A stretch of 64,000 nt of DNA from Chloroflexota bacterium (GTDB taxonomy: Bacteria > Chloroflexota > Dehalococcoidia > Tepidiformales > Tepidiformaceae). Location: positions 1-64,000 of the forward strand of contig JAPOQN010000035.1 in assembly GCA_026710655.1 (NCBI GenBank), in the 5' to 3' direction. A program made the translations under genes and the position numbers. Below are positions 18,415 through 22,682 of this stretch, one piece after another. How positions within the stretch are numbered: position 1 is the first letter of the stretch; each line of letters begins with the position of its first letter. Below the pieces are notes generated by a model. It searched no databases and was not told the origin of the DNA. It saw nothing but the letters and a program-made list of their open reading frames with translations.

Positions 18415-19050
18415 CTAGCTGCCGCGCGGCTTCAGCACCTCGACCGTCAGCTCGCTGGGGATGGAGCTTCGCGTCACGCTCAGGCGGGGACGGGGCTCGG
18501 GCGTGGCGCCTGCCTCGCTGAGGAACCGGTCGATCGGATCAAGGTGCGTGCTGTCGAGGTCGGTGCGGTAGTTCATCGGCACCACGATATTCGGGTCGAT
18601 GCGCTGCATCAGGTCCGCCGCCACCGACGCGGAGAGCGAGCCCCCGCCCCCGACGGGCATCAGGAGCACGTCCACGTTCTCGAAGCGCTCAAGGATGGAG
18701 GCGTCGGGGGGCGCGTCCGGGAGACCAAGGTGGACGATGTTGACCCCGTCGATCTCGTACGCGAAGGCCATCGTCCGCTGGCCATCCCCGCGTTCGATGG
18801 GGATGCCAGTCACGAGGATGCCGCGCACCTCGTACTCGCCCGGCGCCTCGAAGACGCGCGGTTCGCCCTGCACGCCGTCGTGGTTGCTGATCGCGGGGTC
18901 GTCGTTGCGGCTGAGGGTGACGACCTCGGCGCTCGTGCGGCCCAGGCTGTAGCCCGTCGAGGCGGCTACGGGGTCGGTTAGCACAGCCCCTTCGCGGCCG
19001 CGAAGGCGGAAGCATGTGCGACCGAGCCAGCTGATCTCCACTGCGGGCAT
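18415..19050 (-). CDS. Metallo-beta-lactamase-fold protein lacking zinc ligands
   Basis: 211 residues aligning with UlaG-like MBL-fold hydrolases. The ISWLGRTCFRLRGREG start, an FEAPGEYEVRGILVTGIP strand pair and VLLMPVGGGGSLSA are shared. The metal motif that normally reads S-H-D-H-P-D/N-H is LSRNDDPAISN here. The later D-x-G-H region is HLGLPDAPP, and the final M-H-Y is MNY. All expected zinc ligands are therefore lost. It follows the ketosynthase-like gene by 39 nt on the same strand. A structural or binding role is more likely than hydrolysis; the partner is unknown. Confidence 0.78.
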   Translation of the reverse strand: MPAVEISWLGRTCFRLRGREGAVLTDPVAASTGYSLGRTSAEVVTLSRNDDPAISNHDGVQGEPRVFEAPGEYEVRGILVTGIPIERGDGQRTMAFAYEIDGVNIVHLGLPDAPPDASILERFENVDVLLMPVGGGGSLSASVAADLMQRIDPNIVVPMNYRTDLDSTHLDPIDRFLSEAGATPEPRPRLSVTRSSIPSELTVEVLKPRGS

Positions 19051-19089
19051 CGTACCGGCGGGCAGGGAAACGCGGAAGGAATCGAGCGG

Positions 19090-20214
19090 CTAGCGCTGCA
19101 GCAGCACGCTCGCGTTTGACCCGCCCAGCCCCAGCGAGGTCACGAGCACGCAGTCAAGGCGCTCGTCGCGGGCCTCTCGCACGACGCTCAGGTCGGAGCG
19201 CTCCGGCGGCTCGCGGAAGCCGGCCGCGGGCGCGACCTGCTGGCGGCGCATCGCCTCCAGCGCGTACACCAGCGCCAGCGGTCCGCTTGCGGCCAATGTC
19301 TCGCCCAGCGCCCCCGCCGGTGCGGTCACGCTCGCGTAGTAGACGTGCCGCCCGAACGTGCGCGTCAGCCCGACCGCGTCGGAGGCGTCCCGGTTGGCGC
19401 GGCCGTCCGCGCAGGAGGACACGTGGTCGACCTGGTTCTGGAGGTAGCCGGCGGCGCCCAGCACCGCCTGCATCGCCCGGCCCGCCTCCGCCGGATCGCT
19501 CGGGTCGAGCGGTTCCGCCAGCGGGTCGAACGTGCGCGTGGCCGCGGCGATGCGCGCATGCACCGTCGCCCCGCGCTCCCGGGCGTGCGTCTCCGCCTCC
19601 ACGACCACGTAGGCGGCGCCCTCGGCGGGCGTGCAGCCGTCGGGGTGGGCGTCGAGGGGGTGTGCGTCCTCGGGGGCTATCAGCCCCTGCTGCTCGAAGT
19701 GCGCGAGCACGGGTGGCTGCAGCGCCTGCGCCGCCCCCGCCACCACCACGTCCGCCTCCCCCCGGGCCACGATGGCCGCTGCCTCGGCGATGGCGGCGAG
19801 CCCGCTCGCCTCCGCCCCTGCAAGCCCCACAACCGCCCCGCGTACTCCCAGCGTTCGCGCGACGAGCTGTCCGTAGGGGACGAACAGGGTCGGCTGTCCG
19901 GGCGCGCGAAACGCGAGGCCGTCGGCCACCGCGAAGCGCCGCGAGTCCGCGATGCCCGCCGTCAGCCCTGCCGCCTCCACCGCCTGCAGGGCGGCATCGA
20001 GGCCCACCATCGAGCCGCGGTCGAGGAAGTGGGCGAGGTTGCGCGGGATGCGCGCGTGCGGGCGGTAGTCGTCCGGGATGGGGGCTGCCCGGAAGGTCTC
20101 GGGACCGTCGTCGGGGGACCAGTCAATCGCTGGCGAACGCCCCTCTGCCAGGGCCTGCCACATCGGCTCGACCCCGCTGCCGTGCGCGGTCACGGCGCCG
20201 TAGCCGGTCACCAC
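19090..20214 (-). CDS. Ketosynthase-like protein without the Cys-His-His triad
   Basis: 374-residue protein with the full FabF/KS-II fold, from VTGYGAVTAHG at the N-terminus to LGLGGSNASVLL at the C-terminus. The nucleophile cysteine (T-A-C-x-S-G in FabF) is E135 in AGAEASG. The first histidine (N-A-H-G-T) aligns with C268 in SSCADGR. The second (T-G-H) aligns with A302 in PAGALGE, and the lysine before it is also lost. Condensation is therefore not expected. Chain-length factors keep a related inactive fold but pair with an active KS, which is not present here. The GTG start lies 57 nt after the small membrane peptide gene in the same operon. Confidence 0.85.
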   Translation of the reverse strand: MVTGYGAVTAHGSGVEPMWQALAEGRSPAIDWSPDDGPETFRAAPIPDDYRPHARIPRNLAHFLDRGSMVGLDAALQAVEAAGLTAGIADSRRFAVADGLAFRAPGQPTLFVPYGQLVARTLGVRGAVVGLAGAEASGLAAIAEAAAIVARGEADVVVAGAAQALQPPVLAHFEQQGLIAPEDAHPLDAHPDGCTPAEGAAYVVVEAETHARERGATVHARIAAATRTFDPLAEPLDPSDPAEAGRAMQAVLGAAGYLQNQVDHVSSCADGRANRDASDAVGLTRTFGRHVYYASVTAPAGALGETLAASGPLALVYALEAMRRQQVAPAAGFREPPERSDLSVVREARDERLDCVLVTSLGLGGSNASVLLQR

Positions 20215-20271
20215 CGGTTCGGCGAGGTGGCCTGGCAGGGGCTCGGTTGGGAACTGTGGCGCGTCGCTCAG

Positions 20272-20382
20272 CTAGTCGAGGTCCTCATCAAGAAAGTCGT
20301 CGACGCCGGCGCTGCGGCGCATCACCACCACTACAGAGGCGGCGACGGCGAGAAGAACGAGGAGGGCGAGAATGCGCTTCAT
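20272..20382 (-). CDS. 36-residue single-pass membrane peptide
   Basis: Short frame: MKRILALLVLLAVAAS, a run of valines, then MRRSAG and an acidic tail VDDFLDEDLD. It has one hydrophobic helix (about 4-21) with positive residues on either side. It begins after a purine-rich AAGGGG and lies 40 nt downstream of a TATACT box. It is the first gene of the operon with the ketosynthase-like and MBL-like proteins and is too short for most annotation pipelines. Function unknown; a small anchor or partner peptide is plausible. Confidence 0.65.
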   Translation of the reverse strand: MKRILALLVLLAVAASVVVVMRRSAGVDDFLDEDLD

Positions 20383-20506: not shown

Positions 20507-20890
20507 CTAGGCTTCCGAAGGCGGTGGCTCAGCGAACGGCTCTCCCGCTTCAAGAGCTGCTTCCCGCCTCTGGTTCCACTCCACCCAGCGTTGCCGCTCT
20601 TTCTTCTGTCCCTTGCGTTCAAAGCGCGCTTCCAGCTTCTCGGCGATAACCACGATTGCGATCCTCCCGGCTTCGGTGAGTACCATTGCGGCGGCGGCTG
20701 ACGTAATCGCGACGGGGGCGGAACTCTCCCACACAGTGCGTGTCGCGGCAAAAGCCGAGAGACCGCCTACGATGGCGTGATGCGTCTGGAGGGCGACTCC
20801 TCCCAGGAACAGCGTAGCAAACACCACGAAATACAGGTCTCGGGTTTGTTGCTTGACGCTCCAGATCGACTCTCGCGCCGTCTCTGCCAA
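20507..20890 (-). CDS. Uncharacterised two-helix membrane protein
   Basis: 127 residues, not recognised as a named family. Two hydrophobic segments are seen (about 19-37 and 58-85). They are followed by a strongly charged amphipathic tail (KLEARFERKGQKKERQRW onwards) ending in a proline-rich PFAEPPPSEA. A TTG start with GGGAG upstream and a TATGAT hexamer fits. The base composition is less GC-rich than its neighbours, which may indicate recent acquisition. It is transcribed towards the KS-like operon but separated from it. Confidence 0.6.
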   Translation of the reverse strand: MAETARESIWSVKQQTRDLYFVVFATLFLGGVALQTHHAIVGGLSAFAATRTVWESSAPVAITSAAAAMVLTEAGRIAIVVIAEKLEARFERKGQKKERQRWVEWNQRREAALEAGEPFAEPPPSEA

Positions 20891-20968: not shown

Positions 20969-21793
20969 CTATACTTGGGAGGCCCCTGCCCCGCGTACAT
21001 CGCCGAGGAAGGCGCCCAGCGCCCCCTCGAAGGCGCGAGGCGCCACGAAGGGCGCCCCCTGTCCGCAGCCTTCGAGCGTGACCAGCCGCCCGTTCGGGAG
21101 CGTGTCCGCCAGCAGACGCGCCGCAGGCAGGAGCGGGTCGTACTCACCCGCCACCACGAGCGCCGGAACGGCTAGCGACGCCAGCCGCGGCAGAAGCGCC
21201 TCGCGCCCCGCCCGCGCCTGGTGCGCGTCCGCGAACGCCTCCGCGTCGATGCCCCGGTAGTGTTCGCGCACCGAGGCCCGCAGGTACTCGCCCGTATGCC
21301 CCTCTGCTGCGTTCACCCCGACGCGTCCCATCCCGAAGCGCCCCGCCAGCCGCCCTCGCTCGCCGAGCCGTGCCTGGTGGCCCCGCAGATCCTCGTCGTA
21401 GGAGGGGTGTTCGTCGACCGGGATCGCTCCGCTGAGAACGAGCAGGTCGACTCGCCCGGGTGAGTCGAGCGCCAGTTCGAGCGCCACCTCCGCGCCGAAG
21501 CCCGCGCCGATGACGGCGCAGGCGCCCACGCCCTCGGCATCGAGCAGCGCGGCAAGGTCGGCGGTGTAGTCGCGCATCGCCGGCGGCGCTCCGCCGTCGA
21601 CCGGCCGCGCGCTCTCCCCGAAGCCGCGCAGGTCCGGTGCGATCGTGCGGAACTCATCGACCATGTCCGTGGCGAGCGCGCGCCACACGCGACGGTCGTC
21701 GGGGATGTCGTGCAGGAGCAGGGCGGCGGGAGCTTCAGGCGCTCCCGCCACGTCGTAGGCGAGTGTCCAGGCTCCGCGATCGATCTCGGGCAC
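20969..21793 (-). CDS. Alpha/beta-hydrolase-fold protein lacking nucleophile and histidine
   Basis: 274-residue alpha/beta-hydrolase-like protein. The oxyanion/HG-type loop (LLLHDIPDDRRVW), the DLRGFGESARP strand and the acid region VVAGEYDPLLP are present. The nucleophile elbow, normally G-x-S-x-G, is GAGFG, with glycine (G98) instead of serine. The terminal histidine region is EGCGQGAPFV with no histidine. It is unlikely to be a working esterase. The GTG start overlaps the 3' end of the PAP2 gene by 59 nt; a TTG further upstream is possible. Cofactor-less dioxygenases use a similar fold but keep the histidine, so they are not a good match. Confidence 0.78.
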   Translation of the reverse strand: MPEIDRGAWTLAYDVAGAPEAPAALLLHDIPDDRRVWRALATDMVDEFRTIAPDLRGFGESARPVDGGAPPAMRDYTADLAALLDAEGVGACAVIGAGFGAEVALELALDSPGRVDLLVLSGAIPVDEHPSYDEDLRGHQARLGERGRLAGRFGMGRVGVNAAEGHTGEYLRASVREHYRGIDAEAFADAHQARAGREALLPRLASLAVPALVVAGEYDPLLPAARLLADTLPNGRLVTLEGCGQGAPFVAPRAFEGALGAFLGDVRGAGASQV

Positions 21794-22682
21794 GGGCGGG
21801 AGCGTACGCCACCGCGTTAGCGAGGTGCGAGCGCAACCGGCCAACCCTGGAGCGCACGAACGCTGTCAGCGGTGGCAGTAAGCGGGCGGCGCCGGCACGC
21901 ACCATCTCGGTCAGTCGTGCGCTCACCCCGATCCGGTCCAGGTACGCCACCGCCACCCAGCACACCGCCACGACAAGGCCGCCCGCCACCATGTCGAAGA
22001 AGAAGTGGTTCCCCGTCACCACGATCGCCCACCACATCACCACCGACATGGCCACGGCGAGGGCGCGCAGGAACGGATTGCTCGTGTTCACCCAGATGGC
22101 GGCCGAGGCCAGCGCGATCCAGCCGAAGTGGAAGCTCGGCAGTGCGGCAAAGTCGTTCACAAAGGGCGCCGGCTGCATGTAGACCACGTCCGCGCTCCCG
22201 TGAACCGTGTCGACGAAGCCGAAGTCGATGCCCGAGAGGTGGATGAGGCGGGGCGGGGCCGTCGGCAGCAGCCAGTAGGCGGCGATGCCCACCAGGCCCG
22301 AGAGCAGCATCACGTTGCGCACGAAGCGGAAGCGCGAGGGGTTCTTGATCGCCAGCCACGTGCCAATCGCCGCCAGCACCGGGTAGTGCCCCCACGCATA
22401 GACCTGGTTGGCGATGGCCATCAGCAGGTCGTACTGGAGGAAGACCTCCTGCCAGTGCACCTCGGTGAAGATGCCCAGCCGCTTCTCGAAATCGATGATC
22501 TGGAGGCCGCGGGTCAGTGACGACTCGATGTCATCGGGCCGCCCGCCGCGCACAAAAAAGTAGACAAACAGCGCCGCGATCGTCCCGAGCATCTCCACGG
22601 TGGCGATGCCCAGTCGGTTGACATCGAGATACCAGGGACGGGGCCGATCGGCCTTGCGAGAAAGAAACTGCAGACGCTGCAT
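21735..22682 (-). CDS. PAP2/AUR1-like membrane phosphatase or phosphotransferase
   Basis: 315-residue membrane protein with about six helices. The PAP2_3 motifs are LPSFHFGWIAL (H185) and TGNHFFFDMVAGG (H226, D230), which form the catalytic triad. The family includes inositol-phosphoceramide synthase-like phosphotransferases and lipid phosphatases. A basic C-terminal tail follows the last helix. A GGAGG ribosome site precedes the ATG. The 3' end overlaps the start of the hydrolase-like gene, suggesting coupling. The lipid substrate is unknown. Confidence 0.85.
   Translation of the reverse strand: MQRLQFLSRKADRPRPWYLDVNRLGIATVEMLGTIAALFVYFFVRGGRPDDIESSLTRGLQIIDFEKRLGIFTEVHWQEVFLQYDLLMAIANQVYAWGHYPVLAAIGTWLAIKNPSRFRFVRNVMLLSGLVGIAAYWLLPTAPPRLIHLSGIDFGFVDTVHGSADVVYMQPAPFVNDFAALPSFHFGWIALASAAIWVNTSNPFLRALAVAMSVVMWWAIVVTGNHFFFDMVAGGLVVAVCWVAVAYLDRIGVSARLTEMVRAGAARLLPPLTAFVRSRVGRLRSHLANAVAYAPARARDRSRSLDTRLRRGGSA

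Follow-up and report, generated by a model that had tools for sequence, protein, structure and literature searches.

A conserved gene unit of the Tepidiformaceae encoding a membrane peptide, a ketosynthase-like pseudoenzyme and a metal-less MBL-fold protein

Gene layout

The window analysed here comprises positions 1-64000 of one contig in a 3.14 Mb genome belonging to the family Tepidiformaceae, class Dehalococcoidia. The first-pass annotation described three minus-strand genes as one unit, and this was borne out: the open reading frames lie where it had placed them, and the Pfam domains of the KS-like and MBL-like proteins score well above cut-off (Table 1). It must be corrected by the addition of a fourth gene, which codes for an alpha/beta-hydrolase upstream of the membrane peptide.

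Table 1. Features of the gene unit, with positions in the window.
Feature	Position	Strand	Evidence
alpha/beta-hydrolase pseudoenzyme	20969..21844	minus	PF00561 E=5e-17; orthologue alignment; dN/dS ~0.19 in genus
127-aa ORF	20507..20890	minus	no Pfam match; between hydrolase and peptide
36-aa single-pass membrane peptide, acidic tail	20272..20382	minus	orthologues in 32/38 family genomes
probable CTG start of KS-like gene	20269..20271	minus	directly after peptide stop TAG
KS-like (FabF fold) pseudoenzyme	19090..20271	minus	PF00109/PF02801; alignment; AlphaFold model
MBL-fold protein, TM0207 / Lactamase_B_3 type, metal ligands all replaced	18415..19050	minus	PF13483; alignment; AlphaFold model

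The absence of an active ketosynthase (KS) or acyl carrier protein (ACP) nearby also held, no other KS or ACP being found within the window. Elsewhere in the genome, KS matches that pass the Pfam cut-off lie on contigs C7, C13, C16, C33 and C68, and ACP domains on contigs C33 and C63. An anti-phage defence function was rejected after PADLOC gave no match to any model for four proteins. Among open-licence papers on TM0207, pseudoenzyme ketosynthases and the Dehalococcoidia ketosynthase/MBL pair, nothing was found on the unit.

The KS-like protein

The KS-like protein matches the Pfam models ketoacyl-synt (72.6 bits) and Ketoacyl-synt_C (41.6 bits). Its AlphaFold model (pLDDT 87.9) has FabF as best match in Foldseek (TM ~0.87), which is a thiolase-type KS fold. 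In the alignment with FabF, Cys163 is replaced by Glu154, His303 by Cys287, Thr305 by Asp289, Thr307 by Arg291, Lys335 by Ala319 and His340 by Glu324. The catalytic triad had been reported as replaced by Glu135, Cys268 and Ala302. The first two replacements are real, and become Glu154 and Cys287 once the frame is counted from the CTG at 20271, but Ala302 does not correspond to the second catalytic His: it aligns with FabF Ala338.

Among the Tepidiformaceae orthologues, the Cys163 column contains Glu in 26 of 27 and Phe in one, Cys being found in none. The Thr307 column is Arg in all 26 sequences, the Thr305 column Asp in 25/26, the Lys335 column Ala in 23/26 and the His303 column Cys in 22/26, with Gly or Ser in the other four; the His340 column is variable (Gln 14, Phe 4, His 4, Glu 2, Asn 2; n=26). 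The family orthologues therefore do not carry the Cys-His-His triad plus Lys of FabF / KAS II. For ~25 residues of FabF (110-150 region) there is no counterpart, their place being taken by an invariant RxPGQ motif (122-126). Having lost its nucleophile and one of the catalytic His, and with Asp and Arg in place of the two threonines that contact phosphopantetheine in KS-ACP complexes, the protein should not condense acyl groups.

The KS-like frame extends back to a CTG which abuts the stop codon of the peptide gene. The GTG at 20214, previously given as the start, is GTC in most relatives and is located inside the first core strand. A CTG at or beside the peptide stop and in the KS frame occurs in 21 of 26 distinct sequences, and about 16 of the 26 contain no ATG, GTG or TTG before the first core beta-strand. 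Initiation at CTG with translational coupling is the simplest reading.

The MBL-fold protein

The MBL-like protein matches Lactamase_B_3 (PF13483) with 103.8 bits against a cut-off of 24, and the best fold match of its AlphaFold model (pLDDT 91.8) is TM0207 (1vjn; TM ~0.81-0.9). That all metal ligands are lost, as the first-pass annotation claimed, is confirmed by alignment for the window protein: H116 is replaced by R48, H118 by D51, D120 by A53, H121 by I54, the Asp of HLGD by L110 and the His of PMHY by N160. None of 30 family sequences keeps any of the three His of HxHxDH or the Asp of HLGD; one still has Asp in the D120 column, and eight retain the last His.

The upstream hydrolase and the 127-aa ORF

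In the window's hydrolase the nucleophile Ser is changed to Gly (IGAGFGA) and the catalytic His to Gln (CGQGAP), so that both of these triad residues of the PF00561 fold are lost. No sampled member of the window's genus has the Ser, and only G008 retains the His. In the orthologues aligned from other Tepidiformaceae genera the Ser is kept (CSFGG or SSFGG), and the His is kept in nearly all (GHG or DHG). The hydrolase is thus, by its predicted active site, a third pseudoenzyme of the unit, in the window's genus only and new to the description of the locus. In a close relative (G001, locus L010) it lies within ~0.1 kb of the peptide gene, a much shorter spacing than in the window. It is doubtful whether the 127-aa ORF is a member of the unit.

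The membrane peptide

The family consensus of the peptide is roughly MKKxLGIxALLGAxxxAxxFWRRRxDDDEFLDEELE, in which one hydrophobic helix leads into FWRRR and then DDDEFLDEELE. The version in the window's genus departs from it (MKRILALLVLLAVAASVVVVMRRSAGVDDFLDEDLD) and is identical in most species of that genus. All 22 near-complete family genomes are among those in which the peptide was found, and it precedes the KS-like gene in every KS-bearing family locus with that end visible. Where the KS-like gene is missing in G013 and G027, peptide and MBL genes are neighbours; in G023, G025 and G030 the peptide is kept away from the MBL gene.

A search of 197 genomes of the class with the peptide only gave 13 matches outside the family, which are independent in that the MBL protein was not used as bait. 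Of these 13, 12 immediately precede an MBL homologue. Peptide and MBL thus make up the broader unit, between whose two members the Tepidiformaceae carry the KS-like gene. When the region ahead of the MBL gene was scanned for small membrane ORFs across Chloroflexota, the peptide turned up in certain Dehalococcoidia families and in no other group.

Selection and linkage within Tepidiformaceae

Among 38 family genomes, orthologues were found for the KS-like protein in 27, the MBL-like protein in 34 and the peptide in 32. Some of the 11 genomes in which the KS-like gene was not found are incomplete, and several near-complete ones have kept peptide and MBL genes in its absence. The KS-like and MBL genes are directly adjacent in 21 of the 27 KS-bearing genomes; 0.55 kb separate them in G004 and 2.4-2.9 kb in G015 and G033, and three genomes (G011, G012 and G024) have them unlinked. 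Apart from the upstream hydrolase, few neighbours recur around the family loci, most flanking genes being different, and the KS-MBL linkage is therefore not mere synteny.

Median dN/dS values in the window's genus are 0.095 for the KS-like gene (219 codons), 0.093 for the MBL gene (210 codons) and 0.19 for the hydrolase gene (272 codons). With Cys absent throughout the family and purifying selection strong, the replaced residues are conserved rather than decayed. Neither intact triads nor a loss of linkage was found in close relatives as a group; the gene order is linked across genomes, but, given the exceptions above, not absolute.

Distribution outside the family

Adjacent KS-like and MBL genes were located in two further families. 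In f21 (L078, L079 and L086, together with the closely related L135 and L151) they lie beside hrcA. In f66 they follow an intact fabH, giving the order fabH - Cys-less KS - MBL in L104 (3477-6651; genome G167) and L232 (7365-10417; genome G235); in L104 a gene of the acetyl-CoA hydrolase/transferase family comes after the pair. None of the MBL-linked KS-like proteins examined in f21 and f66 has the Cys, and outside Tepidiformaceae the KS active-site columns carry G, Y, A, P or S. The MBL gene itself was found in 107 of 119 searched relatives, mostly with no adjoining KS.

The MBL homologues of many other Chloroflexota are partly eroded at the ligand positions. In f66, L232 has one ligand changed, and the site of L104 is fully intact (HDHPDH, HLGD, PMHY). 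Because every MBL-linked KS examined is without the Cys, yet the linked MBL site is intact in G167/L104, the active-site losses in the two folds are separate and stepwise events. The side-by-side loss described by the first-pass annotation thus stands as regards the conservation of the losses, but these did not come together.

Family f17 contains another Cys-less KS, with Pro or Ala at the Cys position, which lies apart from the MBL gene of that family (L080, 7715-9319; L082, 7491-8684).

In many other Dehalococcoidia, an MBL unit, either KS-MBL or peptide-MBL, runs divergently to hrcA-grpE-dnaK-dnaJ, and a CIRCE element, perfect or nearly so, lies close by next to hrcA (L078, L079, L086, L087, L122, L126, L135, L151, L199 and L201). 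The part of the window that was scanned contained no CIRCE element, and none was found in most Tepidiformaceae loci; heat-shock control is therefore not claimed for the window.

Proposed function

Our preferred, though tentative, reading is that the unit encodes a membrane-linked, acyl-binding, non-catalytic module of pseudoenzymes which is conserved and selected, and not a decaying locus. The folds, the loss of catalytic residues, the conservation, the purifying selection and the linkage are described above; from these we infer a physical complex, its ligand and its recruitment to the membrane. The KS-like protein, in which the FabF fold is retained and which presumably forms a dimer, would most likely be a non-catalytic partner or sensor binding an acyl-thioester or a carrier protein. 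The analogy is with chain-length or cyclization factors, which are catalytically dead partners of KS enzymes. The MBL-fold protein, devoid of metal ligands, would accompany it as a binding subunit, and the peptide, with its one helix and acidic tail, would recruit either or both of them to the membrane. The binding or scaffold role suggested by the first-pass annotation is plausible, as the losses are conserved under selection, although that role is itself conjectural.

In favour of this module we count the near-invariant KS replacements, dN/dS of ~0.09, the KS-MBL adjacency in three families and the placement of the peptide. A precedent is AmcG, the motif-less partner of a KS described below. 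A link to acyl groups is suggested by the intact fabH directly upstream in f66 and the acetyl-CoA hydrolase/transferase family gene of L104. Against it, the fabH link comes from two genomes of one family, and within the window the unit has neither an ACP nor an active KS nearby. The changes of Thr to Asp and Arg are just as compatible with a loss of pantetheine binding. A complex that strictly requires all three parts is unlikely, because the KS-like and MBL genes are unlinked in three genomes (G011, G012 and G024) and near-complete genomes without the KS-like gene keep the other two.

Perhaps the three genes share an operon for expression, and their products have separate jobs with no contact between them. 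The frequency of the MBL gene in relatives with no KS beside it, and the persistence of the peptide apart from it in three genomes (G023, G025 and G030), would fit this. However, KS-MBL adjacency recurs in three families with different surroundings, and peptide-MBL adjacency in several more, which makes mere co-transcription rather unlikely.

We also think it unlikely that Glu154, Cys287, Asp289 and Arg291 form a new active site catalysing a different reaction. These four positions are near-invariant in the family and occupy the old active-site columns, with Cys287 kept in most orthologues. Against this, the residues found outside the family mean that no one constellation is common to the linked lineages, and even within it Cys287 is replaced by G or S in four members.

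Read-through of an in-frame stop, by which peptide and KS-like protein would in part be produced as one membrane-anchored product, appears improbable. The KS frame does continue the peptide frame past the stop in ~22 of 26 sequences, but a CTG right after the stop imposes the same frame anyway. Furthermore, the frames differ in G015, G033 and G019, the two genes are ~50 nt apart in G016, and G015 and G033 retain the CTG in the KS frame; the frame change in these last two argues against obligate read-through.

Although catalytic residues are gone in three neighbouring folds, simple decay, with the genes as pseudogenes shedding their active sites, is scarcely credible, because dN/dS is low for all three genes and the replacement residues are near-invariant. 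In addition, the frames are open in the family members examined, and most species of the genus share one identical peptide.

Returning to the non-catalytic module, a more specific form of it would be a Cys-less Chloroflexota KS lineage, apart from the chain-length factors (CLFs), whose members join the micro-peptide and the MBL-fold protein without metal in a membrane-tethered complex that senses acyl chains; in one genus the hydrolase, as a third fold, would have become non-catalytic along with them. This we regard as speculative and, taken whole, unlikely.

The locus is unusual: within one conserved operon, two unrelated enzyme folds, joined locally by a third, have been stripped of their active sites by separate steps, yet are held by selection. 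The natural series from a dead KS with an intact MBL up to all three dead allows the loss of catalysis and the gain of binding to be tested, and the close relationship to cultured Tepidiforma opens the module to testing.

Comparison with known systems

Degenerate forms of the MBL fold exist, and in polyketide synthesis dead ketosynthases are known to pair with active ones. TM0207 (PDB 1vjn) is the closest solved relative of the MBL-like protein in sequence (E=1.4e-23) as well as in fold; it keeps SHQHFDH, HLGD and PMHY, all of which are replaced in the window protein. The DLW-39 family of small proteins (NF038356) was rejected as an identity for the peptide, with 13.9 bits against a cut-off of 24 (E=0.037), the weak match being confined to a short hydrophobic stretch.

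The KS-like protein has the whole-chain fold and the C-terminal GxGGxN-type loop in common with FabF / KAS II, which possesses the Cys nucleophile, His303 and Lys335; the KS-like protein is without all three, and its His340 column is variable. Decarboxylating KS-Q domains have Gln in place of Cys and keep both catalytic His. This reading was rejected, the KS-like protein having Glu rather than Gln, with His303 lost and the second His mostly lost.

Chain-length factors (KS-beta) are likewise dead KS, with the Cys replaced by Gln, or by Glu in the plasmid-borne chain-length factor of Streptomyces fungicidicus (L218, 1946-3190); Glu at this position is, on alignment, not unique to the KS-like family. 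They are encoded beside a KS-alpha and an ACP, neither of which adjoins the KS-like gene in the window. In the best tree, the Tepidiformaceae, f21, f17 and f66 proteins fall on one side of a branch (support 94/92, not starred), opposite FabF, KS-alpha and CLF, and a clade of CLF and Tepidiformaceae is not rejected (AU p=0.138). Simple CLF membership is unsupported by gene context.

The cispentacin cyclization factor AmcG is a KS partner without functional motifs that forms a heterodimer with the KS AmcF (PMC10698177). AmcG is encoded with AmcF and an ACP (PMC10698177), whereas the KS-like gene is without such a partner in the window, and the KS-like protein scores 127.5 bits with the AmcF model, far below its cut-off of 325. 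Like the KS-like protein, AmcG is devoid of functional motifs and of some secondary structure, a likeness by description only (PMC10698177).
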